Both the position numbers and the translations under genes were made by a program. This document shows positions 1,573-48,328 of a stretch of DNA of 57,852 nucleotides, piece by piece. Origin of the DNA: Oscillospiraceae bacterium Zagget12. Its GTDB lineage: Bacteria; Bacillota; Clostridia; UBA1381. The stretch spans positions 1,768-59,619 of the forward strand of contig MSHM01000020.1 in assembly GCA_001941225.1 (NCBI GenBank), given 5' to 3'. Numbering within the stretch: position 1 is the stretch's first letter; every line of letters starts with the position of its first letter. The notes beneath the pieces were generated by a model, which was not told where the DNA came from, made no database searches, and saw nothing but the letters and a program-made list of their open reading frames with translations.

Positions 1573-2478
1573 TTAATTTTCCGTTTCCCATTTTGCGTTA
1601 CTATAATTCCATATTCCATTAAATTCCTTTCCATTTACTATTGCCTCAAAGGCAGGCTCAAGGAATTCCCGGATTTTCGCAATTACCGAAGAAAATTCAA
1701 GAGTATCATTCTTTATATTTTTTAAGAAGTATTTCCAGCGTTTTAGCATATCCTCATCATCGGCAAGCGCGGTAATCCGCTTAAAGCTGTCTTTATTGTA
1801 TGGCGTACCTCGTTGTTGCAGGGTTTTAAAAATTGCTGTTTGCAAATTTGCCCCCTCAAAATCAAATGTCCTTGCCAAATAATAAATATCATAAAAATCC
1901 TTCATTCTGCCTGTCAGCTCAAAACGCTGTAATATAGCATCGAATTTTTCGGCGATAGTGCTTTCGAGAGAATACGTCTTGATAATCGGAACTTCAAAAT
2001 CGGGAAGTTGTGTAGTGATAACACGCTCCTCGGCACTCGGCACAATCACATCTCCCACGCCTATATCCACATTAAACGGCACTCGAACATTCTTAATTTG
2101 TCCGATAATCTGCGTGCTGATACCGTGATATTTCCTCTGCGGAGAAATTTCCGCAAAGCCTTGAGCTGTCATTTTTATATAATCATTACCTGTTGGAGTA
2201 TCAATAATTTTACAAATCAATTTTTTAACATCATCTATTGAATTTGAATACCTGCGGAGCAGAAAATCAACATCAATAGTCGCTCGGCTTTCAAAATTCG
2301 TGAGCGTGTAAATAAATAATCCGCCCTTTAATATAAGACAGTCAGCATATTCCGATTTTGACAGTTTTCTCAAAAACTCCTCCTGCATAAAAAGCTGTAG
2401 ACATTGCTGATAACCAATGCCGGAAGTCTTTGCCTTATTTCTGAGCTTTGCAAGAACCGATGCCGCAATATCTGCCAT
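1573..2478 (-). CDS. abiEii: AbiEii/AbiGii family nucleotidyltransferase toxin
   Basis: This is the toxin of a type IV (AbiE-type) toxin-antitoxin system, known for phage abortive infection. It is about 301 residues, normal for the family. The nucleotidyltransferase motifs are present: KGG (in LILKGGLFIYTLTNF), the RATIDVDF acidic motif, and the later YSLESTIAEKFDAI and RMKDFYDIYYLA blocks. The chosen ATG at 2478 shares its A with the TGA stop of the antitoxin gene upstream (TGATG), so translation is probably coupled. A GGAG lies 10 nt upstream. In-frame GTG codons at 2481 and 2487 are possible but less well placed. The frame is intact, unlike the neighbouring Fic and HEPN relics, so the system is probably functional. 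Confidence 0.9.
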   Translation of the reverse strand: MADIAASVLAKLRNKAKTSGIGYQQCLQLFMQEEFLRKLSKSEYADCLILKGGLFIYTLTNFESRATIDVDFLLRRYSNSIDDVKKLICKIIDTPTGNDYIKMTAQGFAEISPQRKYHGISTQIIGQIKNVRVPFNVDIGVGDVIVPSAEERVITTQLPDFEVPIIKTYSLESTIAEKFDAILQRFELTGRMKDFYDIYYLARTFDFEGANLQTAIFKTLQQRGTPYNKDSFKRITALADDEDMLKRWKYFLKNIKNDTLEFSSVIAKIREFLEPAFEAIVNGKEFNGIWNYSNAKWETEN

Positions 2479-3086
2479 CACAACCACACTCCAATCAAGT
2501 CTTTTACGCGCTTTTGAACACGCAATTCCTTTGCATACCGCATAAGATTGGGAATATTCTTTTTTGAATCGCCCACGTAGCCTTGAACAGCCTTATTAAA
2601 AATTTCCCTATCCATCTTATTCATATTTTTCAAAACATCGCACATTGTACGGTCACGGTCATAAATGCGAACCGGCGTACAATCTATTTCACCCTCGGTT
2701 TCGCCTATGGCAAGCAAATCGGATTCCATTCGATATGCTTTGATAAAGGGATAATCAATCTTTGCGCGCTGCCTTGACGCGTTTTTATCTATCGCAATAT
2801 GCCATTCCGCGGGATTTCTGTCACTGTAGCCGTAATGGAACAGTGCTGTTTCCATACAAAGAACCGCGTCGGGAAACAGCTTGTTGATAATCACTACTTC
2901 GCTGCTGCCGTCATCGTCGAGCCAACGATAATAACCGCGCCTGACTTTTTCTATCAACCCATCTTTCAACATCTGCTGAATATTTCTGTAATATATGTTC
3001 TTTGAACCGAGTTGTGCGGTTGACATAATGTAATCATATTCCGCAAAAATTTTTTTGAGAATTTCCGTATTCTTTTGGTTATACAT
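2478..3086 (-). CDS. abiEi: AbiEi family antitoxin
   Basis: First gene of the AbiE pair, about 202 residues. It has an N-terminal winged-helix segment (AQLGSKNIYYRNIQQMLKDG then KVRRGYYRW) and the AbiEi C-terminal antitoxin fold (ALFHYGYSDRNP, VRIYDRDRTMCDVLKN). In the AbiE family the antitoxin neutralises AbiEii without stable binding and represses its own promoter. ATG 3086 has GGAG 7 nt upstream; an in-frame TTG at 3092 is less likely. A good promoter and an inverted repeat lie immediately upstream, which supports autoregulation. Confidence 0.88.
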   Translation of the reverse strand: MYNQKNTEILKKIFAEYDYIMSTAQLGSKNIYYRNIQQMLKDGLIEKVRRGYYRWLDDDGSSEVVIINKLFPDAVLCMETALFHYGYSDRNPAEWHIAIDKNASRQRAKIDYPFIKAYRMESDLLAIGETEGEIDCTPVRIYDRDRTMCDVLKNMNKMDREIFNKAVQGYVGDSKKNIPNLMRYAKELRVQKRVKDLIGVWL

Positions 3087-3103
3087 AATCAATCTCCTAC
3101 ACT

Positions 3104-3173
3104 AAACCGCACCTTAAATTTTCAACAAAGGTGTGTTTTAATGTATTGTAGCATATATATGTTATAAAGTCAA
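3104..3173 (-). promoter_or_regulatory. abiE promoter and inverted-repeat operator
   Basis: On the minus strand TTGACT (3173-3168), 17 nt, then TACAAT (3150-3145) form a sigma-A promoter for abiEi-abiEii. Between the promoter and the start codon lies an imperfect inverted repeat, AAACCGCACCTT (3104-3115) and AAGGTGTGTTTT (3128-3139). Published AbiEi antitoxins bind inverted repeats at their own promoters, so this is the likely operator. Confidence 0.7.
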
Positions 3174-3218: not shown

Positions 3219-3272
3219 CGCTTAGCGGTGGTTCGTCCGTGGGGGGTGCGGCTCGGTTGGGAGAGTGCGTGC
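3219..3272 (+). repeat. Degenerate duplicate of the tRNA-Ala upstream region and 5' half
   Basis: This 54-nt segment repeats bases 33-85 with about eight differences, including one extra G. It contains CGCTTAGCGGTGGTTC and GGTTGGGAGAG. The match covers the inter-tRNA spacer, acceptor 5' strand and D-arm of tRNA-Ala and stops in the anticodon stem, so no functional tRNA is made. With the intact copy it brackets the toxin-antitoxin patch 131-3218. Confidence 0.8.
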
Positions 3273-3306: not shown

Positions 3307-3335
3307 TTGACACGGGCGCGGGGATATGATATACT
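3307..3335 (+). promoter_or_regulatory. Sigma-A promoter P1 upstream of the giant surface-protein operon
   Basis: TTGACA (3307-3312), exactly 17 nt, TATACT (3330-3335). The only plus-strand genes downstream are the giant surface protein and its anchor. Confidence 0.75.
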
Positions 3336-3408: not shown

Positions 3409-3437
3409 TTGACAGATGAGCTTGCGCGCAATATACT
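3409..3437 (+). promoter_or_regulatory. Sigma-A promoter P2 abutting a tetranucleotide repeat
   Basis: TTGACA (3409-3414), 17 nt, TATACT (3432-3437). The base after the -10 hexamer is the first base of the CAGA repeat, so the predicted start site (about 3443-3445) falls inside the repeat. The hexamers and spacing are identical to P1. Confidence 0.75.
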
Positions 3438-3510
<73 letters not shown>

Positions 3511-3540: not shown

Positions 3541-3586
3541 AAGGTGCACAGCGGCGCATAATGCGCGTACGCGGTGCGCCTTTTTA
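3541..3586 (+). terminator. GC-rich hairpin with T tract in the leader of the giant gene
   Basis: GGTGCAC (3543-3549) pairs with GTGCGCC (3574-3580), with a nested GCGCAT/ATGCGC element, followed by five Ts. No plus-strand gene ends here, so it could work as a leader attenuator for the operon starting at 3763. The rest of 3590-3747 is AT-rich leader in which I see nothing else. Confidence 0.5.
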
Positions 3587-3762: not shown

Positions 3763-6700
3763 ATGATGAAAAAGCTTTGGAAACGAGTGACCGCAGCGCT
3801 GCTGTGCGTTATGATGACGGCGATGGTGCTGCCCACGGCGGCGTTTGCGTCGCTGTTGGGTAATGATTCTGCGACCAACGCGGAAATTCTTGCCGCACTT
3901 GAGGAGATTTGCGGCAGCGAGGAGGAGGCGGAGCTGTATTACGCTATGCTCCGGCAATATGACCTCTTGGACGAGGACGGCAACGCGATTGAGGATTGGG
4001 AGATTACCATGAACGGCAAGAGCGTTACCTTGGAGGAAATCCGAGATCTGCTTAACGCCGCGGGCACGGATTTATCCCAGACTGTAATGGTGGACGGCAC
4101 GCCCATCACGCTTGAAAATCTTCAAACCATAATCGCGATTGAGGACTATCTTGCGTATTTGCAGGAGACATATTTTAACGGCTATCAATGGTCGAGCGAA
4201 CAGCTCGCGAATTTGCAGTCGCTTGTTGAACAGATTAACTCCACGGGTATCGAGGTTCTCTCAAGCGACAGCGGCATAACCGTTACGGATTGGCCCTCGG
4301 GCGTAAGCCATAACGCGCGCGTAACCGTGACGGACAACGGCGACGGAACATTCACAGCCGTTTTGAGCGGCGCTATGGAGGAACAGGCGGTCAGCTTTGA
4401 CTGGGCTGCGCTTTCCGGAACACAAACTGTCAGCGGCAGCGGCACGGTAGAGCTTACCGCGAACAGCGCCGGTGTGGACAGCGAGACGGTCAGCTTTACA
4501 ATGGAAACAATGGACGCCGATGACGCGGATAACCCCGTGCGCTCCGAGGCGGATTTGGTGTACTATTTAAAGCTTGACAATATCACAAACGCTCTTTTCT
4601 CGAACGAAAAGACGACAATGAGCGTTGAATGTACCACGGACGCGACGGTGTCGGAAATGGCAGGCGAGTTTGACATTGTCGGAACAGACGATGCCGCGAC
4701 GTATGAATATGAATTTTCGGAGGCTCAGAAAAACGCTATACGTTGGGGAAATGTTGATACCCTCACGCTTACGGAAAGCACCTTTTTTACATCTACACCT
4801 GACGTGTATTCTGAGTATCTGAGCGGATATACGGGAATATTGGGCGGTACGGTCAGCCATACCGGTTCTCCTATAGTATCATTTTGTGAAGATGATGTAG
4901 TTATCAACAATATGGTAGACGGAACCAAAATGTACGGATATTTTTATAATATTACGGTACAGGCTGATTTTATCGATGATTCCGGAAACTCGGATACGGT
5001 TGTAGACTATTACTGCGAGGTTAATGATGGCGGAACTATAGTATGGGATCCTTGTACTTTAGAGGATAGTCATTTTGAACGGCTTTTTTATTTTGATGAA
5101 ACAGGCAGTCTTTCAACGGCTTTGGATGCCGACAGCTTAGGCGATTTCACTTCCCTGAAACTGACGGGGGAGAGAAATGAAAGCTCACTGCATTATGTTA
5201 TATTTTACTCGGGTTTTGAGGATCTGCCGGTTTACGCGATGTGCGGTGAAGGCTACTATACTTTGTTTGATGAAGAAGAAGAATACTACGATGAATACAC
5301 AGACGAATGGACCGGCAAATACGGCTGCGTTACCGCGCATTTTACCAACGAGAACGCAGAGGTGACCGTTGAGGATATATCCTTCCCAGAGGGAACGTAT
5401 TACCCGGGACAGGTTGTGCCGGTCACGGTGACATTCTCCGAGCCGGTTGACGCGTCAACGGCTGTAGTGAAATTCAACGGTGACGATACGGAATATTCAC
5501 CGGTAAAGACAAGCGGTTACAGCAATGTTTTGACATTCGCGTATACCGTGCAGAGCGCGGACAACACGACGCTTTCGCTTTCATCGATTACCGCGACGGA
5601 GTACAGCGGATATACCCTGTCCGACTATAATCCCGATGAGAGCAGCGGCACGGGAATGTTGCTTGACGGCGTAACGCTTGCCGAGCCGCAAAAGGAGGAC
5701 GCTATAACCGACGTTTCGGCTGAGATTGATTACAGCGATATAACCGCGCCCGTTATGACGGTTACGGTCAGCATAAGCGACGACGAGGATTTAACCGCAT
5801 GGCTGGGCAATGATTTTACCCAGAACGAGGACGGCGATTTCGTTTCCGATTCTCTGAAAATCCTCTATAATGATGAGAAATATGATTTGATTGCCAACAG
5901 CGAGAGTATAACCGGCGGAACATTGTCCGCGACCATTTCGCTTGGAATGGCTATTGAGAGTACGGTCCATGTGTCTGAGCTGCTGCTTGACGGCGAGCTT
6001 GTAATAGGCAGATGCGGCGTCGCGGAGCAGGATCCGTTTGTGTTCGTTGAAGAGGACGATATAACCGCAGGCGTTTCGATTTTGAACTCGGACGGCACTG
6101 AATATACATACACAGATGATACGAAAACCGTATATATTCAGGACAACCCCTCGGTTTCGGCGAGCATAACGCTGACCGGCAGCGGCTATACCTACGGCGA
6201 CACATCAAACGTCACAACCTATGATGAAAACGGCGACATAGTTGATGAAAATGCCGACTTCGTTTGGTGGGTAGGCAACGAGGATGGAACCGAAATCACA
6301 ACCACCTACGCGAATATCTCCGCCGACGGCACCGTTACACCGACCGGCTCGGCGGGAACCGCCTATATTTACTTAGATGTTATAAACGGCGGCATAGACG
6401 GCTACGGATTTACCGTTTCGGCAGGTTCGGTGACATTCGCCTCGGGTCTGACACCGTTCCTTAAGATTCCTAATAATAAATTGGAAACCGTTTCCGGCAA
6501 GGACGTAACGGTTTATTGGACGAGCAATATCTGCGATAAGAACGGCGAAGAAACCACGACATTCACCGTTACCGTAACGCGCGGAGATGATACGGATACA
6601 TACACTCTTACCGGTACCGCGTCAAATCCCGTGTCTACATATACCGTTTCCGGCAGCGATCTTGAATATGACTACAGCGCTGCCGCAAACAATACGATTA

Positions 6701-9700
6701 CCGTTACGGTTTCGGCGGAATATGCCGGAGTAACATATGAGGCATCGGCGGAAATAATTCTTGATTCCACGCCTGCCGTTGTAAACCTGGACAGCCTTGA
6801 CAGCTACTATATATTGGACACAGCGGGAAGTGTGAATATCGATTGGAATATTACAAACTTCGATAAGGCTGCGGATAATACAAGTGAGCTTTTCGAGCTG
6901 CTTGTAACCCGCGGCAGTAACACGGTCGCAAAGGTTACCGACCCCGGTGATACCACCGGAGACGGCTCCTATACCGGCAGCTACGCATTATCTATTGCCG
7001 ATGTGAACGCGAACAAATCGGACTCAAGCTCCTACCGCGAGGTTTACACCGTTACCATTAAGGCGAAAAACGGCACGGACAGCACATGGAGCTACGATTC
7101 GTTTATGTTCTATGTATACGATGAAAACGCGCTTGATTTGTGGATTGACGGCGAGGCGCAGGATTCGCTTACAATGAATAACGCGGACAAGATTGCCGCG
7201 ATGAGCCAAGATGAAATTCTTGCGCTTAATCGCGATATATACCTTAAAAACACCATCTCCGCAAACTACGGAGATTACGCATGGAGTGAGCTTGCCGACC
7301 AAATTGCGTGGGCGTCGAGCGACAGCTCCACGGTTTCTGTAAATTATCAGCAGGGCACGCTGTATGAGAATATCGAGAATTTCTCCTATGTTTCATACCG
7401 CCCGACAACGGAGTTCGGTCTTTCCGGTCTTGCCGACGGCACGGCGAAGATTACCGCAAAGCATACCTTAACCGGTATGACCGAAAGCATAGATGTAGAT
7501 GTAGAAACCTTAACGGATAAGCTCTATCTTTTCCAATGCTATCCGCAGACAACTACGACTCTTACATATACAAACGGCGACGGAGAAACCAAGACTGTTT
7601 ATTCGGACGACACCGGTGCGGCGGCGATATACGAGGCAAGCGGCATAGCAAGCGATGTATATTGCTCGTCCGAATCGGAGGGAATAAGCTATTTGGGTAC
7701 GTTCTATAACAGCTCCTTAAAGAGCGGCGAGGGCGATTGGACAAGCCTGGAGCGTTATCCCTGCAATAACCTTACACTTCGTCAAGCGGCATACGCTTAT
7801 GTTTATTTGAAGAACCCCGACGGAACACCGTACACCGGCAGTGTTGTCGTTCGCGGCGGTGTGTATGTAAACGGCGAGTATATTAAGGACGCGAACTTTA
7901 AATATAATAAAACCACGGCATCAGCCTCCTCCGCAGGCTATGAGGATACCACAGTGTCGATTACGAGCAACGGCAAGCTTGCGGTTGCGATGGATCAGGA
8001 GCAGTGGGATTTGGAGGGTGAATTGACCGCAGAAGACGAGGTTTCCTATGTATTCCAGATTGACACCGGCGGAGTGGACTATTATCCGCTGTTCGTTACC
8101 ATTGACGCTACAGTCAATGAGGACGCATATGTAGGAAACGGCGAGGCGGTTGCGACGTTTGAAAGTAATACGACCGGCGAAAGAAAGCCGTATATTTCCT
8201 CTCAAACGCTGCTTTATGACGGCTACCGCACGCCAACCTCCATATTGAATTCGACGGGAACAATCGGACTGAGCGAAAGCTATCCCGCGGCAACCTTGAC
8301 AACCACGGTTATGTGGTGGGGAGAAACCGCGGATGAGGACCCGCAGAACAGTCTTCAGCTTTATACCTCGTCCCGCATACCCGTCGCGGACGGAACGGGC
8401 GAGTATACTATAGATAACGAGGGCTATCCGTTCTCGGATTTGATTGTTACAACCTATACCGTAACGCTGGATAAGAGCAGTCTGGACGGCGTTGTGAAAC
8501 AGGGCGAAACCTCCGGACTTGTGCTTGACTATTATAAGGACGGCACAAACCTTACCAGACTGGAAAGTCTCTCATTCAGCATATCCAATATGACCGATGT
8601 CGGAGCGCCGGAGGATTCAAGCGACCTCCTTGCGCAGATTAAGAATATGGGAAGTTACGCCGGAACCAATGCGAAGGACGCGAAAAAGGACTTTGGCGAT
8701 CAGTTCGTAAATATCGCGCTTAATTTGGTTTCAAGCGACAGCTATACCACGGGCGACAGCAGTATGTTCTCGATGCAGCTCGCTCCGACGAGCGACCCGA
8801 CCAAGTTTTTGGGCTTTATCGAGGTCAATATCGGCAATATGTCCGATGAGGATCAAGTCACCGGAGTTTACGCAAACGGAGATAACAGCGGCGAGGAGGA
8901 TTGGGACTACTCACCGGGCCTAAGCGAGCTTTTGACCCTCGCAGGCAAGAAAAGTGTAAGCGATTATCTCTTAAAGGACGCCACAAATGTCTTAAACGGC
9001 AAGGGCGTGCGAAATATAAGCTTTGATATAGGCGGCTATATGGAATCATTGGTATACTATGATGTGGAGTCCGCAAGCTGGAAGATTCAGATTCTTTCGG
9101 GCGGCTTTAACGCCGGCGGCGGCCTCAGCTATACATGGTCATGGAATACCGTAGTAGGCTGTATTCCGTTCACCGCGTCGCTTGCCATAGGCGGTACGGC
9201 GGAGGTATCAATGGACGCGATTACTATGTCGTATACCAATGACAGCGGAACGCTCACGATGGGCAACGATTACCTTACCGAGCTTAGAATTTATCTTTAT
9301 ATGTACTTCTTCGCCGGAATAGGATTTGACTATTCAATTATAGCGTTTAAGCTGGGTATTTACGGGCAGATTGATGTGGATATGAGGTTCGACTTCCTAA
9401 ACCGCCCGTCGGACGGAGCAAGTCAGGGTATTGAGAACCTAACAGGACAGCATTTCCAAATAGACGGACAGATAGGTTTGGAATTTGTGGTGAAGTTCTT
9501 ATTCATAAAATATGAAAAGATATTCTGCTCGTACAGCTTTAACCTACTGAATACAAGCACAAACGAATGGGAAAGCATACAAGAGATTTGGGAAAACGAT
9601 CAGGCGGCATATCAGTCAACGATTTCGTCGCTTTTAGGAAACGGAACTCTATCCTTAACGAGCGTCGGCGGACAGCAAATGCTTTCGCTTAATCTTGCCC

Positions 9701-12700
9701 CGACCATGGAGGACTTGAGCTATCTCGAGGACGGAAGTACATGGGACAGCGGCGGAATATCGTTGTTCTCACTGGATACGGATAACGGCGCGGCGGGATT
9801 GAATACCTTAAACGGCAATTCCTATGAGTACGCGGATCCCGTTATTACCGACGACGGACAGATTGTAGCGTTCTTGGGCGTTCCGTCGGCATTGGCGGGC
9901 GAATATGAGGACGGCGACGCGGTTCAGGCGATGTTCGCCGTAAAGAGCAGCGGCGCGTATAAGAATCCGGAGGCGATTGACGATAACGACGGCTACGGAG
10001 ACAGCCAAATTTCATTGGCGGGCGGCGAGGACTTCGCCGTTGCGGCTTGGACGCGTCTTGCAGTGGATATTGAAAAGGAGGGCGGCGCGACGCTTACCTC
10101 CGACGATCAAATGATGATGATGAACGGCACGGAGATTTACGCGTCGGTTTATGACAGCGGTAATTGGGCAACCACGCGTATTACCGATAATTCTACCGCG
10201 GATCTCGCTCCGGTGGTTGCGTCGAACGGCACAAATGCGATTGTGGCATGGCGTTCGGTAAGCGCGAGCGACGGCGACGATTTGACGGACTTCGACCAGA
10301 AGGATACAATCCTGTATAAAATTTACAGCGACGGCGAATGGGGCGATACCCAAACGCTATATAACGGCACCTCCGGCAATGTTAAGGCTATTGTGGCGGA
10401 TATGCTCTCGGACGGCACTGCGGCTGTCGCATATACTCTTGATACCGACAGCGACAGCACCACCACGACCGACCGCGAGATTGTATACGCGGCGGTAAGC
10501 ACGGAAACGGGCGATGTTGTCCGCAATGTCCGCGCGACGAACGACAGCTATTTGGACGAAAATCCGCAGCTTACAACCGTTAAATTCGGCAGTGATGAGC
10601 GTTTCGTTCTCGGTTGGTATACCGAGGAGAGCGCGAGCGAGGACGGCGCGTCCGGTCTTGACGGCGACAGCGAGACGAACAGCGGCACGGAAACAACGGC
10701 GGATATTCGCCTGCTTGACTTTGACGCGAACGGTATAGCGACACAGCTTATGCCAGATTCGATAAGCGAGGCGGCGTCCGACGAGGAGGTCGAAATCACC
10801 TCCGATTTCCGCTTTACAAAGAACGCGGATACGATTGACGAGCTTTCTATACTTTGGGTTGAGAGAAGTAACGACAGTAATGACAGCGAGGACTATACCA
10901 TTTCTGATGAGGACGGCAGCTCCGAGACAAGCTACGACCTTTCGGAAAGCACTGCCGAAATGGATATTTTAAAGGGCGTCAAGTTCTATACCTACGGCGA
11001 TAATGATGAGATGATTTCATTCACCGGCGCGGTTGACGTGGCTGAAATGGGCGACGGCACCTTGATTGACAGCTTTGACGCTTACGTAAGCAATGACGAC
11101 GGCACAGAGATAAAAGCGGTAATTTTGGGTACCACCTACGGCGCGGACGGCGCAACGGTAACAAACGAGGCGGAAACCGAGGGCGGCGATACGGTTCAGT
11201 ATACCGTTCCGGCGGCGGAATCTTCGATGTATACCGCTACGGAAACCTACACCAACACAATCGACGTGCCCGCGTTTATACCGGATTACGATACGATTAA
11301 GCTCGGCGCAAAGACAGAAATTTGGTTCAGCGTTGAGAATAACGGAATTTTGCCGATTAATAAATTGGAATTTACAGTCGGCGATACAGTTACGACATAT
11401 GAGGACCTCAATCTTCTGCCCGGAAACAGCCTACAGGTTTATGCGGATTATCAGGTTCCCGAAGACGGGGTTGAGGATCCTGATTTCAGCGTTACCGCGA
11501 CGTTTACGGACACATCGACCGATACATATGAGGGTATGATGTACCTAAATCTTCCCGACGTGGAGATTACGGACGCGTCCATAGTAAACGAGGAGGAAGG
11601 CATAAGAACAATTCAGGTTAAGCTTAACAACACAACCGATGCCGCGCTCGGAACGTCGAGCGGCACGAGTGTAAGGCTTGGTTTCTACTCCGACGCGACA
11701 TACGAAACACCGATTGACGGCTTGAGTGCGATAGAAATTACCGACGCGGACGACCTCGCTATGATTGACGAGGGCGGCTACAGTATTCAGACTGATTTCA
11801 ATTTGAATGACTACCTTGCGGACGGCGATGAAATTCCCGATGCCGGTATTACCGTGTATATTAAGGCGGAGGTTATCGACACCGATACCGACGCGGCGCA
11901 GGGCGAGCCGAGCACATATAACAATTACGCGACTGTGACCTGTGAGAATCTAAAGACGCGTACCGGTGTGGATGCGACCGTGACAAGTGATTTGTCGGTA
12001 GACAGCGAAGAACAAACCGCAAAGGTTACGGTATATTTGCAGAATACAAGCCTTGCCGAAACGGAAACGGGCAATGTTATCGTTACACTTCTCGACTCCG
12101 ACGGAAAGGCTGTGGCATTGAAACAAAGCTATACGGGAAATGCCGCCGGCGCATCGCTTGCAAGCGTTGGCGAGGACGGATTGATTACTCTTGCGGGCGA
12201 GGAAAAGGCGACCGAGACATTTGAGTTTACAAATGTAACCGGTGTTTCATCGGTGCAGGTTGCATATTCCTCTTTGACTCTGGATACCGCGTCTGCGGCG
12301 CTTTCGAGTCTGACGTTCAGCAATATCCCGGGAATTACCGTGGACAGCTTTGAGTATAATGAGGAAACGGGTAATTACGAGGCGACCGCGGAGGTTGAAA
12401 ATGTAACCACAACCACCGTTACGGCTGTGACGGAATCCGCATCGGCAACCGTAAATATCGGCGATTCAAGCGGCACCGTTTCGTTGGCGGAAACGGTTGA
12501 TGTTGCTCCGGGCGATGATAATACCATTACCGTTAATGTAAGCGATGACCTAAACGGCTCGACCGATAACAGAACATACGTTTTGACGGTATCGAACAGC
12601 GTGTCATATACAATGAGCGCAAAGGTTACAAGCACAGCGGACGCATACTATCCTTACGATGAGATAACCGTAGATGTTTACGCTAAGCCCGATATGGATT

Positions 12701-15639
12701 CGACCATCACAGCGGCGCAGATTGCGTTTGACGGCGATTGGTACACCGTGACCGCGGCGAAAGGCACCGGCGACAGTGATACTGTGGAGGTCGGCGAGGG
12801 CACGAATGTGGTTTCGATTGCGTATGACAGTGAGATTTCCGCGACAACGACCGAGGAAACAAAAATTGCGACAGTGACGCTCAAAGTAAACGAAAACGCG
12901 GTGACCGATTCGGCGGCGGCAATAGAGTTTGCCGAGGATAACACCTATTTAAGCGATAACACGTCGGTAAATTATGAGATTACCCCGACATTCGCCTCCG
13001 CGCCGACAGTTGTGGTGTATAACCTGATGCTGACGCTCTCATCGGGAGATAACGCAAGCTTTGATTCGGCAACGGATCCGACAATCGCGTATTTGAAATA
13101 CAATGAAACAGGCTTGTATTCCGACGCGGCGCGCGCTACTGAGATAACATCGCTCCCGACCGCAACGGCGGCGGAGGGCTACGAGCTGAAGAGCGGCTAT
13201 TGGACGTTGACGCTCGGTGATGAAACAGACGGAACACAGATTACGGAAACGGAGCTTTTGAGCAAGGTATGGACGGACAGCGGCTCGGCAATTCCCACGG
13301 CGCTGGAGCAGTTCACCGTTACGATAACCGCACCGGACGCCAAATACGGCACGATAACCTATGACGGCGCGGCGGTCAGCGGCAGTAAAGAAATCACCGT
13401 AAACGAGGAAACGACATACGGTGAGATAATCTCCAAGATTGCGTTCACAACGGCTGACGGAACGGCTTACGTTTTGAAAACATGGCAGCTCGGCGACAGC
13501 GGTGTGTACGTCGGAGCAGATGACACCACCGCAGTATCCGAAGACACCACACTTAATCCGGTAATAACCGACGATACATTTACGATGACGCTTGACAACG
13601 GCGATAATTGGAGCTTTGACGGTGTTACCGGAGCAACGCTCAAGGAGGGTAATGAATACACCGTCACCTACGATACAAATGTAACATTTAAGCTCACGCC
13701 TGCCGAGGGCTACGCGATATACGGCGTAAGCTATTCGGTTGCCGACGGCACAGCCGTTACAATTTCGGCGGATACAGACGGCACATTTACTATCCCGGGC
13801 AGTGCGATTATCGGCGATATGAATCTTGAGGTAATCTCGAAGGAGTATCATACGGTAACCTTTGACGCGGGTACAGGCTCGTCTATGACAAAGGGCACCT
13901 ATTACGCGTGGGACGGTATCGCGGGATTGTATACCGATAAAGACGACCTCGGCTTGTCTGGCAGTGTGGCTGCGTCTGCGATAAAGAACGATTTGGCGGC
14001 AGACACAAGCGATGAGGACAACGGCAGTAAATACCGTCTTGCGGCGGACACGGCGGCGGAGCCTCTGTGGACGGACGGAGACAGCGACGTTACAACGGCG
14101 GATATATTGAAGAAGGCATACACCGCCGACACGGATTATACCGCTAATGCGGTTAAGCAGTATCTTCTGACCTTTGCGGACGGAGATGAGGGATTTGACA
14201 GCTATGACAGCAGTGCGGATCTCAAGCTTTGGATTGACGACGGCAGCAGTATAACAGGTATGAGCTATTCCGTTCCGACCGTAACGGCGGAAAGCTATTA
14301 TGAGTTTGAGAATTGGAGCATTGACTCCGACACGTATAGCGAGGACGATCTTGCGGCACTTGAGATAACCGGTGCAAAGACAGTGACGCCGGTATTCAAA
14401 AAGATAGATTACAGCGTAACCTTTAACGCGGGAGCGGCAGGTACGTTTACCGATATAAACGGCGTAGACGGCACCGAGGGTTCGTATACCGCTCAGTGGA
14501 ATGAAGAGGATATTACATTTAAGTTCGAGGCGGACACAAGCTATAACATTACGGCTGTAAAATATCAGGTCGGCACCGATGCGGCGATAGCTCTTACCGA
14601 GGAGGACGGCGTATATACTATTCCGAAGGCGAACATAACCGGCAATATCGTTGTGACGGTTGTGGCTGATGGAATTCGTACATACACGTTCGTTATTGCG
14701 TCGGAGGACGCGGCTAAGGGTACGTTGAGCGGCACAAGCGCGGTTGTGACCGAGGTCGGCGAAACACCCGATCTTACGGACGTAGTCGTTACGGTGAACA
14801 GCGGATACATGTTCGAGGGCTGGAAACTTAACGGTGATGATACCGTTTATTCAAACAGCGATATAGAGAGCGAAACGGTCACAGACACAACCGATAACCG
14901 CATATATACGGCGGTGTTCTCGCTGACAGACCTTGAAACGACATACGACAGCACTCTTATTTCAAGCATAAGCGGTCTTGAAAACGGCAAAGCCCATATC
15001 GGCACCGACATCGTAATAACGCCCAACAATAACCTTGCGATTATAAGCGTTACCTATACGATTGGAGACGGCGAGGCGCAGACGGTGACGGCAAACAGCG
15101 ACGGCACATACACGATAAACGGCAGCGCGCTGACCGATGATGTTGAAATAACCGTGAATCCGGTAACGGATAAAAACGGCGATGCGGTATACTTCGAGTT
15201 TATCGCGCGCGACAGCTATTTCGGCGAGGGCGTATACTCAAGTGAGGAACGCAAAATAGCACTGCTTACGACCGGCGAAATCGACGGTTCGTACACGATT
15301 GACGGCAGCGGAGACTTCTATTATTCCGACCGCTACGGCGCGTATGTAATCTGGGTTGACGCGGCTGAAACCGCGGCAACGCTGAACACGAAACTCGGCT
15401 ATAACGAGCAGGGAACCCCGACCGAAATCACCTACGACGGCGATATTAACAAAACCGGAACGGTAACGGCAGGCGACGCGGGTATTATAAACGATATTCT
15501 GAAGAGCCGATATAACGGTACCTTGTCTGATGAGCAGCTCTTTATGCTCGATACGGACGATCTTTCGACGGGCGGCGGCAGTGAAAAATCGGTTTACAGC
15601 TCCGACGTTGTATGGATTTTGGAGGAAAGCGTTAAATGA
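3763..15639 (+). CDS. Giant exported multidomain surface protein with C-terminal dockerin-like module
   Basis: A 3958-residue protein (roughly 0.4 MDa). GGAGG lies 10 nt before the ATG. Residues 1-29 are a signal peptide (KK, hydrophobic core, AFA-S). Then follow an acidic helical region (about 30-170), Ig/Calx-beta-like beta-sandwich segments, and a Gly/aromatic-rich beta domain (about 1745-1930). A sialidase- or propeller-like repeat region (2020-2290) contains blocks such as LAPVVASNGTNAIVAWRS. CARDB-like segments (2485-2730), a cadherin-like sandwich (2845-2945), a cohesin-like domain (2947-3086) and InlB-B-like repeats (3095-3800) come next. The tail GDINKTGTVTAGD is the first calcium loop of a type I dockerin; the second loop is degenerate. 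There is no LPXTG or SLH anchor. The stop overlaps the start of the cohesin/SLH gene (ATGA), so the partner is made alongside. The substrate or ligand is unknown and domain borders are approximate. Confidence 0.9.
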   Translation: MMKKLWKRVTAALLCVMMTAMVLPTAAFASLLGNDSATNAEILAALEEICGSEEEAELYYAMLRQYDLLDEDGNAIEDWEITMNGKSVTLEEIRDLLNAAGTDLSQTVMVDGTPITLENLQTIIAIEDYLAYLQETYFNGYQWSSEQLANLQSLVEQINSTGIEVLSSDSGITVTDWPSGVSHNARVTVTDNGDGTFTAVLSGAMEEQAVSFDWAALSGTQTVSGSGTVELTANSAGVDSETVSFTMETMDADDADNPVRSEADLVYYLKLDNITNALFSNEKTTMSVECTTDATVSEMAGEFDIVGTDDAATYEYEFSEAQKNAIRWGNVDTLTLTESTFFTSTPDVYSEYLSGYTGILGGTVSHTGSPIVSFCEDDVVINNMVDGTKMYGYFYNITVQADFIDDSGNSDTVVDYYCEVNDGGTIVWDPCTLEDSHFERLFYFDETGSLSTALDADSLGDFTSLKLTGERNESSLHYVIFYSGFEDLPVYAMCGEGYYTLFDEEEEYYDEYTDEWTGKYGCVTAHFTNENAEVTVEDISFPEGTYYPGQVVPVTVTFSEPVDASTAVVKFNGDDTEYSPVKTSGYSNVLTFAYTVQSADNTTLSLSSITATEYSGYTLSDYNPDESSGTGMLLDGVTLAEPQKEDAITDVSAEIDYSDITAPVMTVTVSISDDEDLTAWLGNDFTQNEDGDFVSDSLKILYNDEKYDLIANSESITGGTLSATISLGMAIESTVHVSELLLDGELVIGRCGVAEQDPFVFVEEDDITAGVSILNSDGTEYTYTDDTKTVYIQDNPSVSASITLTGSGYTYGDTSNVTTYDENGDIVDENADFVWWVGNEDGTEITTTYANISADGTVTPTGSAGTAYIYLDVINGGIDGYGFTVSAGSVTFASGLTPFLKIPNNKLETVSGKDVTVYWTSNICDKNGEETTTFTVTVTRGDDTDTYTLTGTASNPVSTYTVSGSDLEYDYSAAANNTITVTVSAEYAGVTYEASAEIILDSTPAVVNLDSLDSYYILDTAGSVNIDWNITNFDKAADNTSELFELLVTRGSNTVAKVTDPGDTTGDGSYTGSYALSIADVNANKSDSSSYREVYTVTIKAKNGTDSTWSYDSFMFYVYDENALDLWIDGEAQDSLTMNNADKIAAMSQDEILALNRDIYLKNTISANYGDYAWSELADQIAWASSDSSTVSVNYQQGTLYENIENFSYVSYRPTTEFGLSGLADGTAKITAKHTLTGMTESIDVDVETLTDKLYLFQCYPQTTTTLTYTNGDGETKTVYSDDTGAAAIYEASGIASDVYCSSESEGISYLGTFYNSSLKSGEGDWTSLERYPCNNLTLRQAAYAYVYLKNPDGTPYTGSVVVRGGVYVNGEYIKDANFKYNKTTASASSAGYEDTTVSITSNGKLAVAMDQEQWDLEGELTAEDEVSYVFQIDTGGVDYYPLFVTIDATVNEDAYVGNGEAVATFESNTTGERKPYISSQTLLYDGYRTPTSILNSTGTIGLSESYPAATLTTTVMWWGETADEDPQNSLQLYTSSRIPVADGTGEYTIDNEGYPFSDLIVTTYTVTLDKSSLDGVVKQGETSGLVLDYYKDGTNLTRLESLSFSISNMTDVGAPEDSSDLLAQIKNMGSYAGTNAKDAKKDFGDQFVNIALNLVSSDSYTTGDSSMFSMQLAPTSDPTKFLGFIEVNIGNMSDEDQVTGVYANGDNSGEEDWDYSPGLSELLTLAGKKSVSDYLLKDATNVLNGKGVRNISFDIGGYMESLVYYDVESASWKIQILSGGFNAGGGLSYTWSWNTVVGCIPFTASLAIGGTAEVSMDAITMSYTNDSGTLTMGNDYLTELRIYLYMYFFAGIGFDYSIIAFKLGIYGQIDVDMRFDFLNRPSDGASQGIENLTGQHFQIDGQIGLEFVVKFLFIKYEKIFCSYSFNLLNTSTNEWESIQEIWENDQAAYQSTISSLLGNGTLSLTSVGGQQMLSLNLAPTMEDLSYLEDGSTWDSGGISLFSLDTDNGAAGLNTLNGNSYEYADPVITDDGQIVAFLGVPSALAGEYEDGDAVQAMFAVKSSGAYKNPEAIDDNDGYGDSQISLAGGEDFAVAAWTRLAVDIEKEGGATLTSDDQMMMMNGTEIYASVYDSGNWATTRITDNSTADLAPVVASNGTNAIVAWRSVSASDGDDLTDFDQKDTILYKIYSDGEWGDTQTLYNGTSGNVKAIVADMLSDGTAAVAYTLDTDSDSTTTTDREIVYAAVSTETGDVVRNVRATNDSYLDENPQLTTVKFGSDERFVLGWYTEESASEDGASGLDGDSETNSGTETTADIRLLDFDANGIATQLMPDSISEAASDEEVEITSDFRFTKNADTIDELSILWVERSNDSNDSEDYTISDEDGSSETSYDLSESTAEMDILKGVKFYTYGDNDEMISFTGAVDVAEMGDGTLIDSFDAYVSNDDGTEIKAVILGTTYGADGATVTNEAETEGGDTVQYTVPAAESSMYTATETYTNTIDVPAFIPDYDTIKLGAKTEIWFSVENNGILPINKLEFTVGDTVTTYEDLNLLPGNSLQVYADYQVPEDGVEDPDFSVTATFTDTSTDTYEGMMYLNLPDVEITDASIVNEEEGIRTIQVKLNNTTDAALGTSSGTSVRLGFYSDATYETPIDGLSAIEITDADDLAMIDEGGYSIQTDFNLNDYLADGDEIPDAGITVYIKAEVIDTDTDAAQGEPSTYNNYATVTCENLKTRTGVDATVTSDLSVDSEEQTAKVTVYLQNTSLAETETGNVIVTLLDSDGKAVALKQSYTGNAAGASLASVGEDGLITLAGEEKATETFEFTNVTGVSSVQVAYSSLTLDTASAALSSLTFSNIPGITVDSFEYNEETGNYEATAEVENVTTTTVTAVTESASATVNIGDSSGTVSLAETVDVAPGDDNTITVNVSDDLNGSTDNRTYVLTVSNSVSYTMSAKVTSTADAYYPYDEITVDVYAKPDMDSTITAAQIAFDGDWYTVTAAKGTGDSDTVEVGEGTNVVSIAYDSEISATTTEETKIATVTLKVNENAVTDSAAAIEFAEDNTYLSDNTSVNYEITPTFASAPTVVVYNLMLTLSSGDNASFDSATDPTIAYLKYNETGLYSDAARATEITSLPTATAAEGYELKSGYWTLTLGDETDGTQITETELLSKVWTDSGSAIPTALEQFTVTITAPDAKYGTITYDGAAVSGSKEITVNEETTYGEIISKIAFTTADGTAYVLKTWQLGDSGVYVGADDTTAVSEDTTLNPVITDDTFTMTLDNGDNWSFDGVTGATLKEGNEYTVTYDTNVTFKLTPAEGYAIYGVSYSVADGTAVTISADTDGTFTIPGSAIIGDMNLEVISKEYHTVTFDAGTGSSMTKGTYYAWDGIAGLYTDKDDLGLSGSVAASAIKNDLAADTSDEDNGSKYRLAADTAAEPLWTDGDSDVTTADILKKAYTADTDYTANAVKQYLLTFADGDEGFDSYDSSADLKLWIDDGSSITGMSYSVPTVTAESYYEFENWSIDSDTYSEDDLAALEITGAKTVTPVFKKIDYSVTFNAGAAGTFTDINGVDGTEGSYTAQWNEEDITFKFEADTSYNITAVKYQVGTDAAIALTEEDGVYTIPKANITGNIVVTVVADGIRTYTFVIASEDAAKGTLSGTSAVVTEVGETPDLTDVVVTVNSGYMFEGWKLNGDDTVYSNSDIESETVTDTTDNRIYTAVFSLTDLETTYDSTLISSISGLENGKAHIGTDIVITPNNNLAIISVTYTIGDGEAQTVTANSDGTYTINGSALTDDVEITVNPVTDKNGDAVYFEFIARDSYFGEGVYSSEERKIALLTTGEIDGSYTIDGSGDFYYSDRYGAYVIWVDAAETAATLNTKLGYNEQGTPTEITYDGDINKTGTVTAGDAGIINDILKSRYNGTLSDEQLFMLDTDDLSTGGGSEKSVYSSDVVWILEESVK

Positions 15640-17420
15640 AAAATACAATAAAAGCAAAATTAACAGCTCTGCTGATTTCTGCGGCGATGCTCCCTATGGG
15701 GAGCTTTGCCGCAAGCGCGGCGGATTCATATGACTTCACTCTTTACGCGGACGGCGGCGCCTCCGCCGCCGTATCGGCAGGCGATGAGGTTGAAATTACT
15801 CTTGCGATAGAGGGCGATGAGGATTACACATTCTATTCCATGCAGGATTATGTGAAATTCGACACCGATTATTTCGAGCTTGACGAGGACAGTATAACAG
15901 TGAAACAGCAGCTCAACTCGAGCGGACTGTACACGGATATATTCTCCGCTGTGCCGATAGACGTGTACGGCGCGGGTTATGACAGGATTTTTATAAACCG
16001 CGTGTCGCTCACGGGAATTGCCTTTTCGGCAAAGGAAACAATATTGACCTTTACGCTTACGGCACTCCAAGACGGCGTTACCGATATAACGCATTACCGC
16101 ACGGAAATGCTTGACAGCGAAGGCAGCCGGCTCACCGTAAACGAAAATACGGCAACGGTTACGATAGGCGATGCCACACCTTCGCCGACAACCGCGCCGA
16201 CCGCGTCACCCGAGGTTAATCCCACGGCGGCGCCCACTACGGCGCCCACTGCGGCGTCTACTACGGCACCCACAGCGACACCGGCGGTACTTACGGTATC
16301 ATCGACGCCCGCCGCGTCGAATATAACGCGCGGAAGTACTCTTTCAAAATCGACGCTCAGCGGCGGCACCGTGGTCAATGCCGACGGCGAAACGGTAAGC
16401 GGCTCGTGGGCATGGCTTGACGGCACCGAAACTATGTCAAGCACCGGAACATACGAAAGAACGGCGGTGTTTACCGCTGATGACGATACCTACGGTACGG
16501 TCGAGGTGACTGTGTCCGTAAAGGTATACACAAGCTCCGGCGGCTCGTCAAGCAGCTCAAGCGGTACGAGCAGTGCTACGGCATACACGATAAATGTTGA
16601 CAACAGCGTGGTGTATGGTACGGCGGAGGCCAACACATCAACCGCGAAAGCGGGAGATACGGTAACAATCAAAATATCTCCCGTCGTAGGCTACTCGGCG
16701 GACAATGTAACCGTAACGGATAGCTACGGAAACAAAATAGAAGTGACGCAAAACGCGGACGGAACCTATTCGTTCGTTATGCCCTCCTCGGAGGTAAGCA
16801 TTGACGTTGAGTATATCGAAACGGACGGCACATCGGACGCGGACGGAACCGATACGCACGATACCTGTCCGAGCGAGCCGTATACAGATGTTGATACATC
16901 GCTTTGGTATCATAAGTATGTCGATTACGTTATAGAAAACGGTTTAATGACCGGCACATCGGACACGACATTCGAGCCTGACACAACGACAACGCGCGGT
17001 ATGATTGTTAGCATACTGCACCGTTTGGAGGGCAAACCCGAGGCGGACGGCAATTCGGTATTTACCGATGTCGCGGCGGGCGAATGGTATGCGGACGCGG
17101 TAACGTGGGCGGCTGAAAACAACATAGTCGCAGGCTACGGCGACGGAACATTCGGTCCGAATGACACCATCACGCGCAAGCAAACGGCGGCAATATTGTA
17201 CCGCTACGCGGACTATAAGGGCTATGATATGAGCGCGTCGGGCGACATCTCCGTATTTGCCGACGCGAACGAGGTAAGCGCCTACGCCGTAACCGCCATA
17301 CAGTGGGCGGTAGGCACCGGTCTTGTATCCGGCAGGGACGACGGCACGCTTGACCCGCAGTCCGGCGCGACCAGAGCCGAAACAGCCGCGATGCTGATGC
17401 GGTTTATAGAATCAGATTGA
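15636..17420 (+). CDS. Cohesin-like/SLH cell-surface anchoring protein
   Basis: A 594-residue exported protein. The signal peptide (1-28) ends in AASAA. A cohesin-like beta-sandwich (about 30-180) carries family-typical features: a DFTLYADGG start, YVKFDTDYFEL and ETILTFTLTAL. A Thr/Pro linker (about 183-225), an Ig-like domain, a Ser/Gly linker and an InlB-like repeat (about 310-395) follow. Three SLH domains (about 414-594: YTDVDTSLWYHKYV, FTDVAAGEWYADAV, FADANEVSAYAV) bind secondary cell-wall polymer. The ATG overlaps the TGA of the giant dockerin gene by ATGA, indicating translational coupling. By analogy with cellulosomal anchoring scaffoldins, it probably holds the giant protein on the cell surface; that interaction is inferred. 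A terminator follows. Confidence 0.88.
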   Translation: MKNTIKAKLTALLISAAMLPMGSFAASAADSYDFTLYADGGASAAVSAGDEVEITLAIEGDEDYTFYSMQDYVKFDTDYFELDEDSITVKQQLNSSGLYTDIFSAVPIDVYGAGYDRIFINRVSLTGIAFSAKETILTFTLTALQDGVTDITHYRTEMLDSEGSRLTVNENTATVTIGDATPSPTTAPTASPEVNPTAAPTTAPTAASTTAPTATPAVLTVSSTPAASNITRGSTLSKSTLSGGTVVNADGETVSGSWAWLDGTETMSSTGTYERTAVFTADDDTYGTVEVTVSVKVYTSSGGSSSSSSGTSSATAYTINVDNSVVYGTAEANTSTAKAGDTVTIKISPVVGYSADNVTVTDSYGNKIEVTQNADGTYSFVMPSSEVSIDVEYIETDGTSDADGTDTHDTCPSEPYTDVDTSLWYHKYVDYVIENGLMTGTSDTTFEPDTTTTRGMIVSILHRLEGKPEADGNSVFTDVAAGEWYADAVTWAAENNIVAGYGDGTFGPNDTITRKQTAAILYRYADYKGYDMSASGDISVFADANEVSAYAVTAIQWAVGTGLVSGRDDGTLDPQSGATRAETAAMLMRFIESD

Positions 17421-17444
17421 CAGAAAAATATATCGGATAACAAA

Positions 17445-17484
17445 CAGCCGAGGCGAAAATGCCTCGGCTGTTGCGGTTTTATTT
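17445..17484 (+). terminator. Terminator after the cohesin/SLH gene
   Basis: A 10-bp perfect stem CAGCCGAGGC (17445-17454) / GCCTCGGCTG (17461-17470), followed by a T-rich stretch. It lies between two converging genes and may serve both. Confidence 0.8.
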
Positions 17485-20693: not shown

Positions 20694-20707
20694 TGTAATA
20701 CCTCCAA

Positions 20708-21502
20708 TTAAATAGATAGTCCGTTTTCTTTGAGCCAACTTGCAACCTGTGACGCGGAAGATGAGGACGTTCCTCGAAATCCGTTTGCAATCGTGCTGTT
20801 CGGACAAAGTGTTTTCAGCTTTGACACACTTCCCGTTATTGACGTAGAACCGCTTGTACAAAACGGAATAATTGTCTTTCCAGATAAATCATATGTTGTT
20901 AGGAAGGTCACAACCGGCGTAGGCAGCGAGTTATACCAAATGGGATAGCCGAGCAAAATCGTGTCGTATTGCTCGATTGTTTCCAAATCAACCGTAATCG
21001 ACGGTCTGTAATCCTCAGCCTGCTCCTGCTGAACCTGTGCAAGACATTCGCTGTAATCCTCCGGATATGAATTAACGGTTTCAATCCTTACAATATCGCC
21101 GCCTGATATGCTATGCACCGTTTCCGCAAGTGATTTTGTGGTTTCTGTTCGGGAGTAATAAACAACAAGAATATTTCCCTCGCTTGGCAAATCCTCTGTT
21201 TTTGAAGAAAAGGCATTGCATAACGGCGTTAAGCTTTCCATATCCCACAAAAATGCTTTTATGTCTGTCGCCTCGGAAATGCTCATATCCTCCGCAAATT
21301 TTCCGGTAATAGTACCGCTGCCTTGATATGCGGATATGTCAATAAGCGTATTGTCACGGAACAATCCGACAAGCAATGTTGAATTTTCCGGAACGTCCGT
21401 TGCTGTTACGGTATCGGTATTTGCGGTGATTGATGCCGCTTGTACACAGCTTACTCCGCAAAAAAGCAATAGTATAAGAATTAAACACAGCCTATTCCTC
21501 AT
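20708..21502 (-). CDS. Exported flavodoxin-domain protein
   Basis: A 264-residue protein. Residues 1-22 form a signal peptide (GVSCVQA; a lipoprotein cysteine is possible). Residues about 23-105 form a beta-rich domain with an AFLWDMESLTPLC segment that recurs in clostridial surface proteins. Residues about 110-264 are a flavodoxin-like domain with the FMN loop SRTETTK, YDTILLGYPIWYNS and a TIIPFCTSGS block. Fold and order match the flavodoxin part of the next gene. Its ATG overlaps the stop of the small upstream gene (ATGA), so translation is coupled. The electron donor and acceptor are unknown. Confidence 0.82.
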   Translation of the reverse strand: MRNRLCLILILLLFCGVSCVQAASITANTDTVTATDVPENSTLLVGLFRDNTLIDISAYQGSGTITGKFAEDMSISEATDIKAFLWDMESLTPLCNAFSSKTEDLPSEGNILVVYYSRTETTKSLAETVHSISGGDIVRIETVNSYPEDYSECLAQVQQEQAEDYRPSITVDLETIEQYDTILLGYPIWYNSLPTPVVTFLTTYDLSGKTIIPFCTSGSTSITGSVSKLKTLCPNSTIANGFRGTSSSSASQVASWLKENGLSI

Positions 21503-42639: not shown

Positions 42640-42778
42640 TTTTGCCATTGTCCCATCGCTCGTAGGCACAAATGTGCTCGATTTCGGCAGGCGATCCGAC
42701 TGTAACGGCAGCGTGACTGCGGAGGATTTTCGCCTCACTTCTCCTTTTAAAAATGCACAGGAGGCATTTACCGAAAAA
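42640..42778 (-). promoter_or_regulatory. Cobalamin (B12) riboswitch aptamer
   Basis: On the minus strand the conserved blocks of the cobalamin riboswitch are seen in order. They are AAATGCCTCCTG near 42773, AAAAGGAGAAGTGAGGCGAA, GAAAATCCTCCGCAGTCACG, CTGCCGTTACAGTCGG, and the B12-box-like GTCGGATCGCCTGCCGA. The terminator at 42588-42626 follows. B12 binding should turn off the cobalt-import and tetrapyrrole operon. Borders are approximate to about 10 bases. This covers the otherwise gene-free stretch 42484-42835. Confidence 0.85.
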
Positions 42779-48283: not shown

Positions 48284-48328
48284 ACAACACACCCATCGGA
48301 ACAAAGTATAAAAAGGGAGGATTTGAGA

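Follow-up and report, generated by a model that had tools for sequence, protein, structure and literature searches.

According to the accessible parts of the published accounts, the cellulose-adhesion protein CttA of Ruminococcus flavefaciens ends in an X-module and a dockerin which carries insertions (PMC5301203, PMC4266597), and this X-dockerin binds the single cohesin of the wall-anchored protein ScaE, which is encoded in the same gene cluster (sca) (PMC5301203, PMC4266597, PMC2930009). The link between X-dockerin and anchor cohesin in this organism has been reported to be among the strongest protein-protein interactions of its type (PMC5301203). The CttA–ScaE arrangement appears to be the nearest precedent, in working principle, for the subject of the present work: a gene for a giant exported protein (“the giant”) and an overlapping gene for a protein with SLH repeats (“the anchor”), found in a stretch of 57,852 nucleotides (“the window”) from the uncultured Oscillospiraceae bacterium Zagget12 (Bacillota), which corresponds to positions 1768-59619 of contig C20 (MSHM01000020.1) in a 1.90 Mb assembly (GCA_001941225.1) that is 77% complete. 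The pair is interpreted here, from comparisons of sequence, as a two-gene surface docking unit of the cellulosome style, in which the giant would be held by its own SLH anchor and would itself be a single-cohesin adaptor scaffoldin; a probability of about 0.62 is assigned to this reading.

The two systems are alike, as far as the accessible accounts of CttA and ScaE go, in that a protein with an X- or X-like module and a dockerin at its tail is encoded together with an anchor protein bearing a single cohesin or cohesin-like domain, and the stretched dockerin loop of the giant recalls the insertions in the dockerin of CttA. They differ in that ScaE is sortase-linked through an LPXTG motif whereas the anchor in the window carries SLH repeats, and in that CttA binds cellulose via two carbohydrate-binding modules (CBMs) whereas no CBM is recognised in the giant. 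Further differences are the lack of any sequence match between the X-like module and solved X-modules, the presence of a cohesin-like module within the giant, and the overlap of the two genes.

The complex primary scaffoldins of Acetivibrio provide a second likeness: they contain internal cohesins, and the dockerin at their C terminus attaches them to an anchor that combines cohesin and SLH (PMC11557425). Those scaffoldins are described, in the accessible part of the account, as having many cohesins, a CBM3 and enzyme clients, whereas the giant has one cohesin-like module and no CBM3 match, and no catalytic clients have been recognised. CipA carries an X-module. Both SLH-anchoring scaffoldins and monovalent adaptor scaffoldins are defined classes (PMC11557425), and the giant resembles the latter in combining one cohesin-like module and one dockerin in a single protein, but it is about 4000 residues long, most of the difference being a very large outer part, and the likeness of its module to a cohesin is established only via relatives. 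The mucinolysome of Limousia is similar in that gut bacteria use cohesins and dockerins outside plant cell walls, with a dedicated wall-anchoring scaffoldin, but its anchor is of the LPxTG type and its clients are glycosidases and peptidases, according to the accessible part of the report (PMC12997984). Cohesins and dockerins without a known role in cellulose use, including a dockerin and cohesins in one protein, also occur in archaea, among them anaerobic methanotrophic (ANME) lineages, for which the accessible part of the source describes no SLH-anchored giant/anchor operon (PMC9012536). Among the open-literature titles and abstracts listed, no report was found of such an operon or of CAGA tracts, like the one upstream of this pair, before such genes; most of the subscription literature lies outside this search. 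Cohesin and dockerin proteins outside cellulosomes were reportedly treated by Peer et al. in 2009.

The gene pair is real and conserved. The two open reading frames share the ATGA in which the stop codon of the giant and the start codon of the anchor overlap, as the preliminary description of this DNA had claimed, and the same overlap is present at two further loci, L051 and L052 (loci and genomes are designated below by L and G numbers, G000 being the assembly that contains the window). The ribosome-binding-site-like GGAGG lies 10 nt 5' of the anchor ATG, within the last codons of the giant, and the genes that flank the pair on both sides (an AbiE pair and a rhamnose isomerase gene) are on the opposite strand. 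Neither protein contains an LPxTG motif, which for the giant had already been noted. The features of the pair are:

3763..15639, plus strand: gene for the giant, an exported protein of 3958 aa with a signal-peptide-like start (open reading frame; signal peptide read by eye)
12601..13026, plus strand: internal cohesin-like module, giant residues 2947-3088 (homology via relatives; no Pfam match of its own)
13027..15150, plus strand: InlB-like repeat array, weak (Flg_new_2, E-value 1.3e-3, 19.1 of 23.6 bits, below cut-off)
15172..15435, plus strand: X-like module directly before the dockerin (alignment of the window with eight further loci or genes)
15439..15636, plus strand: dockerin, giant residues 3893-3958 (tail alignments, family profile)
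15621..15625, plus strand: Shine-Dalgarno-like GGAGG of the anchor gene (from the sequence; within the 3' end of the giant gene)
15636..17420, plus strand: gene for the anchor, 594 aa (open reading frame; start overlaps the giant stop)
15714..16175, plus strand: cohesin-like domain of the anchor, residues 27-180 (PF00963, E-value 4.9e-4, below cut-off; alignment with six relatives)
16170..16301, plus strand: Thr/Pro/Ala linker of the anchor (from the sequence)
16881..17396, plus strand: three SLH repeats of the anchor (PF00395, E-value 4.2e-36, three stretches)
17443..17472, plus strand: intrinsic terminator-like hairpin 3' of the anchor (13 pairs, then a T-rich tail)

The tail of the giant, which had been proposed to hold a dockerin-like calcium loop, can be placed with the dockerins because a profile of ten homologous tails (that of the window and nine others) matches solved dockerins: 24 distinct PDB sequences were found at E-values of 1 or less, mostly named as dockerins, scaffoldins or cellulosomal enzymes, and the best of them, a cellulosomal scaffoldin adaptor protein, was reached at 3.7e-7. 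The first calcium loop, GDINKTGTVTAGD, begins at residue 3893. The 74-residue tail of the window alone scores 14.6 bits for Dockerin_1 against a Pfam cut-off of 22.9, while scores for PF00404-like dockerins in the proteins of relatives are 31.2 bits (G369) and 30.6 bits (G190). The X-like module is a conserved stretch of about 85 residues placed before the dockerin as in X-dockerin dyads; a PDB sequence search with it matched no solved X-module, and assignment to a known X-module type was rejected on that ground.

The anchor likewise has the composition that had been read from its sequence, namely a cohesin-like domain, a Thr/Pro linker and three SLH repeats. Its residues 27-180, when cut out, score 20.8 bits for the Pfam family Cohesin (PF00963), for which the cut-off is 24.1, and the equivalent domains of two different loci among the eight compared exceed this value (L052, 25.0 bits; L107, 26.5 bits). 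Of the two parts of an SLH-anchored cohesin protein, the SLH repeats are clear in the window, and the cohesin is below the cut-off there and above it in those two relatives. Seven of the anchor domains can be aligned across most of their length, and the domain of L053 is without the first strands. The family of anchor cohesins matches the family of internal modules of the giants with a profile-profile probability of 78% over 52 columns; its probability against Pfam-positive cohesins is 50-51% if the L097 module is included among the latter and 7-31% if it is not. The search with hidden Markov models that had been named as a check on the two domain assignments has therefore had a divided outcome: the window's own tail and anchor domain both fall short of the Pfam cut-offs, but domains of relatives lie above them and the family profile of the tail reaches solved dockerins. 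A separate observation concerns the anchor of L051, which relative to the window is without about 640 bp that include the first SLH repeat (L051 2832-2853 against window 16397-17039).

The internal module of the giant lies about 700 residues before the dockerin, and counterparts are found upstream of the X-dockerin in relatives. The module in the window is 53% identical to its counterpart in L052, which itself matches PF00963 at 8.5e-5 (23.2 of 24.1 bits), and the counterparts in L080 and L097 are above the cut-off. Among the 15 loci with an X-dockerin homologue (see below), five have a Pfam cohesin above the cut-off in the X-dockerin reading frame (G098, G253, both loci of G190, and G475), two have one just below it (G071, with 22.3 bits in the genome and 23.2 when cut out, and G299, with 22.4), and five have a homologous module without a Pfam cohesin match (G000, which is the window, G117, G118 and both loci of G369); the gene is frame-broken between module and dockerin in G117 and G118. 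In G246 cohesins are found in a reading frame adjoining a broken dockerin frame, and the module region is truncated in G017 and broken in G070. An eight-member profile of the modules, including the Pfam-positive L080 and L097, matches the solved scaffoldin cohesins 6kg8 (2e-3), 6kgc (2.2e-3) and 5m2o (0.013), as well as 7urp (1.1e-4), which is deposited under another name. When 54 segments of the giant were scanned as single sequences, the two that overlap the internal module ranked first, with a probability of only 1.7-1.8%. The module in the window would thus be cohesin-like by a chain of relatives and not by itself, and the giant resembles a single-cohesin adaptor scaffoldin because the counterparts of this module in relatives are Pfam cohesins; the combination of one cohesin and one dockerin is found by Pfam in those relatives, and in the window by homology only.

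The giant gives no Pfam match at cut-off and no recognised catalytic domain, in agreement with the non-catalytic appearance that had been ascribed to it. The Ig, propeller-like and CARDB modules proposed in the same description were not recovered, while the InlB-like modules receive weak support from the Flg_new_2 match. A PDB search for a solved relative of the body of the giant gave nothing meaningful. Scans of whole proteins overlooked cohesins in L032, L080 and L108 that were seen when a stretch was cut out or when the genome was searched, and absence from such a scan is for that reason weak evidence. The middle part of the giant also occurs in other proteins, since a 2053-aa fragment from another genus (L054, G046:C143) shares 35% identity with giant residues from about 1663 to 2788.

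If the internal module were a spacer that has lost dockerin binding, then the unit would be a simple display device in which the giant is a terminal adhesin and the only cargo. The divergence of the module speaks for this, given that Pfam finds no cohesin match for it in the window, in G117 or in G118, nor in whole-protein scans of either G369 protein, and the terminator-like hairpin behind the pair and the lack of a recognised catalytic domain in the giant are also in line with it. A module of mere spacing does not, however, readily account for the presence of a cohesin or a homologous module upstream of the X-dockerin at 12 of the 13 assessable loci, with the thirteenth (G246) having it in the adjoining frame, nor for the fact that several of these upstream modules are full Pfam cohesins, and ten other dockerin proteins in the cell need a partner. 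This alternative is considered rather unlikely, with a chance that is still appreciable.

The docking-unit reading draws further on the recurrence of the pair. At a threshold E-value of 1e-6, X-dockerin homologues were found at 15 loci in 13 genomes. These comprise 2 of 95 genomes of the window's order, 4 of 48 from the family to which Candidatus Gallispira edinburgensis (G070) belongs, and 7 of 400 sampled from the G071 family. The four genomes that built the search profile are counted among them, and G017, G072 and the L051 record, which agree in the number, length and content of the contig, are treated as a single genome. At eight of the 15 loci, the X-dockerin gene directly adjoins a cohesin-SLH gene on the same strand. 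A search of other genomes for the same gene order had been suggested beforehand; the pair itself recurs, but the order varies, with the giant first at five loci (G000, G017, G071, G098, G253) and the anchor first at three (G070, G118, G190:C19). Because four paired loci (G000, G017, G070 and G071, the last three of which entered via the anchor) were used to build the search profile, the fair count is four of the 11 other loci with an adjacent anchor. The giant genes are interrupted by frame breaks in the G070 and G118 assemblies, and the G017 giant is truncated. G369 has two X-dockerin genes; 2.4 kb upstream of the first of them is a cohesin-SLH gene, separated from it by one gene on the opposite strand.

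The first domain of the anchor is strong in only two of 70 genomes of the family. The X-dockerin tail is rare in its own order yet occurs in genomes reached via other families, which suggests that the pair has been transferred as a unit. A plasmid-borne trait was rejected as an explanation, since the anchor domain has no match in the plasmid collection.

Over seven pairs, the distances between anchor cohesins and those between X-dockerins are correlated with r = 0.86 (6 of 5040 permutations were as good), compared with 0.63 for SLH against X-dockerin (13 of 5040) and 0.60 for cohesin against SLH; the partial correlation of cohesin and X-dockerin given SLH is 0.77. With eight pairs, the correlation of cohesin and X-dockerin is 0.92 (3 of 20,000 permutations). 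L051 was excluded as nearly identical to the window, and L052 was excluded from the seven-pair set, as its contig ends before the SLH part; the L078 tail and the L053 cohesin entered as partial sequences, and the two genes of the G369 pair do not adjoin each other.

Several observations weigh against the docking-unit reading. The window clade does not show the two-repeat pattern of a dockerin, the first loop being canonical and the second stretched and without its pattern; the second loop is canonical in L093, L097 and L108, and degenerate or stretched in L080, L053, L078, L052 and the window. Six of the eight anchor domains are under the 24.1-bit cut-off (the window, L080 at 23.7, L053 at 23.0, L097 at 20.3, L108 at 19.8 and L078 at 15.8). 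The assignment of the anchor cohesin rests on Pfam and on relatives, because the anchor-cohesin profile matched no solved cohesin in the PDB. The internal module of the window has no Pfam match at E-values of 1 or less, a profile of it and its three closest relatives matches no cohesin in the PDB, and in profile-profile comparison the internal modules reach 50-82% against Pfam-positive cohesins with the L097 module and 2-14% without it, where reversed controls reach at most 6.4%. A directly adjacent anchor is absent at seven of the 15 loci; at five of these no cohesin-SLH gene was seen at all, with both neighbours visible at two (G475, G190:C24) and contig ends near at three (G117, G246, G299). 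Finally, the co-variation rests on seven to eight pairs and partly reflects common descent.

A further alternative is that the two domains do not bind and are decayed relics, and that the genes remain neighbours on other grounds, for instance because surface proteins are regulated jointly. The degenerate second loop and the position of both window domains under the Pfam cut-offs speak for decay. Against it stand the first loop and the X-like module, which are conserved even between distant genomes, the recurrence of the pair in both gene orders, and the correlated divergence, and this explanation is considered very improbable.

The other cohesins and dockerins of the assembly determine how far the unit can be regarded as self-contained. 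Ten other dockerins lie above the Pfam cut-off; they have a mean identity of about 59% among themselves and are 14-19% identical to that of the giant, which fits a private pairing for the giant's dockerin. Pfam finds only two cohesins. The second cohesin protein (L032 12167-13381, G000:C27) carries, besides its cohesin (33.8 bits for the cut-out stretch), a Cu-amine-oxidase N-terminal domain and a long tail rich in Asp and Thr, and the Cu-amine-oxidase-type domain is listed, in the accessible part of the source, as a wall anchor other than SLH (PMC11557425). The cell appears to have at least two cohesin proteins and two dockerin subfamilies. In whole-protein scans of this 77% complete assembly, which may overlook weak domains, as they did cohesins in some long or acidic proteins, no catalytic Pfam or NCBIfam domain was seen in any of the ten at E-values of 1e-3 or less; what could be recognised in them was leucine-rich repeats, PMP-like repeats and, in one case, SLH, so these putative clients look like surface-binding proteins and not like cellulases.

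Since the dockerins of a cellulosome sit on plant-cell-wall enzymes, and none of the ten proteins is recognisably catalytic in these scans, a classical cellulosome was rejected. A strictly one-to-one device was rejected as well, given the ten other dockerin proteins, the second cohesin protein and the internal cohesin counterparts. The pair had been characterized as a minimal 1:1 device and not a cellulosome; the second half of that statement holds for content, but the first is not supported, and the earlier reading needs to be widened, with the pair seen no longer as minimal but as a scaffoldin-like part of a more extensive docking network. The comparisons support the view that a dockerin-tailed giant without a recognised catalytic domain, with its own cohesin/SLH anchor, is a recurring unit which is not a cellulosome in content.

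The same inventory bears on whether the anchor could be a general surface port, whose cohesin would also bind the ten other dockerin proteins and for which the giant would be only the neighbouring client. ScaE offers a parallel, as it binds several group-4 dockerins besides CttA and ScaB, according to the accessible part of the account (PMC5301203), and the scarcity of cohesins in the assembly favours the idea. A shared port is nevertheless improbable, in view of the distance between the ten dockerins and that of the giant, the availability of a second cohesin protein which could serve the ten, and the tracking of the giant's dockerin by the anchor cohesin across species.

Two side observations concern cohesin and dockerin genes elsewhere. 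In L114 (G070:C24 42000-53680), from Candidatus Gallispira, there is a cluster of alternating cohesin and dockerin matches. In L093 (12710-16180, G369), a subtilase with SLH repeats is encoded directly 3' of the X-dockerin giant, and this region contains a GGCACA x10 tract encoding a Gly/Thr stretch.

Under the docking-unit reading, the anchor would be exported and held in the cell wall by its SLH repeats, with its single N-terminal cohesin-like domain facing outward on the Thr/Pro stalk. The giant would be translated from the same mRNA and exported, with translational coupling keeping the two proteins in proportion, and it would be held at the surface when its C-terminal X-module/dockerin binds the anchor cohesin. 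The rest of the giant would then extend away from the cell as an arm for adhesion or ligand binding, and a second socket, for another dockerin protein of the cell, may be offered by its internal cohesin-like module.

The region upstream of the giant contains a set of features that may bear on the expression of the unit:

3307..3335, plus strand: promoter-like site TTGACA-N17-TATACT (consensus scan, 11 of 12; alone not evidence of function)
3409..3437, plus strand: promoter-like site TTGACA-N17-TATACT adjoining the repeat tract (consensus scan, 11 of 12)
3438..3492, plus strand: (CAGA)13.75 perfect tandem tract (found with TRF)
3563..3579, plus strand: terminator-like hairpin in the leader (scan; leader fold z = -3.3)

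The tract covers the predicted start of transcription, because its first base directly follows the -10 hexamer, and it is the sole (CAGA)5 site in the assembly. A DNA search with tract and leader in 16 genomes of the genus matched, besides the own genome, only G017, twice and both times at contig ends; low-complexity filtering may hide further copies. In one of these cases (L128) the tract at 5820-5871 lies about 290 bp before the gene for an exported protein, which is frame-broken in that assembly and has a dockerin at the end of its downstream pieces, and in the other (L129) the tract at 3139-3170 lies about 70 bp before the gene for a large exported protein. Beyond the tract, the three leaders have TAAATCTG, then a T-rich stretch, and then a GC hairpin with a T-run behind it; a simple scan scores the hairpin as terminator-like in the window and L128, and in L129 it is seen only by folding. 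The fold of the window leader is better than those of 200 of 200 shuffles, while that of the short stretch at the tract end does not stand out in the window, L128 or L129 (z about -1.4 to -1.5). A known riboswitch was rejected, as the leader has no Rfam match at gathering scores. The same leader before the ten other dockerin genes of the genome was also rejected, with no match at an E-value below 0.1 in loci that cover 476 bases or more upstream of every one of them; a single match at chance level (E-value 0.88) is in L036.

The anatomy of the leader is that of a phase-variable, possibly attenuated surface gene, and the presence of the same tract and leader before two exported-protein genes in G017 suggests phase-variable expression. 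The tract at the promoter may let the expression of the unit vary between cells as the repeat number changes, and it is possible that the tract and shared leader form a phase-variation module of the whole genus. An extended reading, which is tentative and somewhat doubtful as a whole, would be that of a phase-variable, SLH-anchored “adhesin-osome” of uncultured Bacillota, in which a cohesin-dockerin network carries adhesive proteins and not enzymes, the giant adaptor scaffoldin plugs into its operon-encoded anchor and recruits adhesins via its internal cohesin, and the whole is switched by the tetranucleotide tract and an attenuator-like leader common to other surface genes of the genus.

The neighbourhood of the pair has some features of its own. 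A tRNA-Ala gene is found at 55-130 of the window, and its leader and 5' part recur at 3219-3272 as a truncated and degenerate copy, with an AbiE-type toxin-antitoxin pair on the minus strand (1573-3092) between them, so that the region between gene and partial copy looks like an insertion at a tRNA. In the same-genus contig L051, positions 1-2065 hold tRNA-Trp and tRNA-Ala genes and a recombinase of the phage-integrase family, followed by only the C-terminal part of the giant in frame, which is either a truncation or an assembly chimera. Further along the window are a minus-strand reading frame (18822-20861) with the unusual combination of a Cu-amine-oxidase N-terminal domain, a flavodoxin and an aldo/keto reductase; an AdoCbl-II riboswitch on the minus strand (42681-42754; Rfam, 38.9 bits); and a second SLH protein (48323-51265) of 980 aa with two N-terminal SLH repeats.

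Pairs of X-dockerin and anchor cohesin have been studied mostly as enzyme scaffolds. If an operon that recurs in distant Bacillota hangs a giant, apparently non-catalytic arm on an SLH anchor in this way, the same hardware would be seen to serve adhesion or the capture of ligands. The pair also provides a small test system, in which modules of about 150 residues are encoded side by side, and it leads to the specific prediction that the expression of the unit would flicker through the repeat tract.

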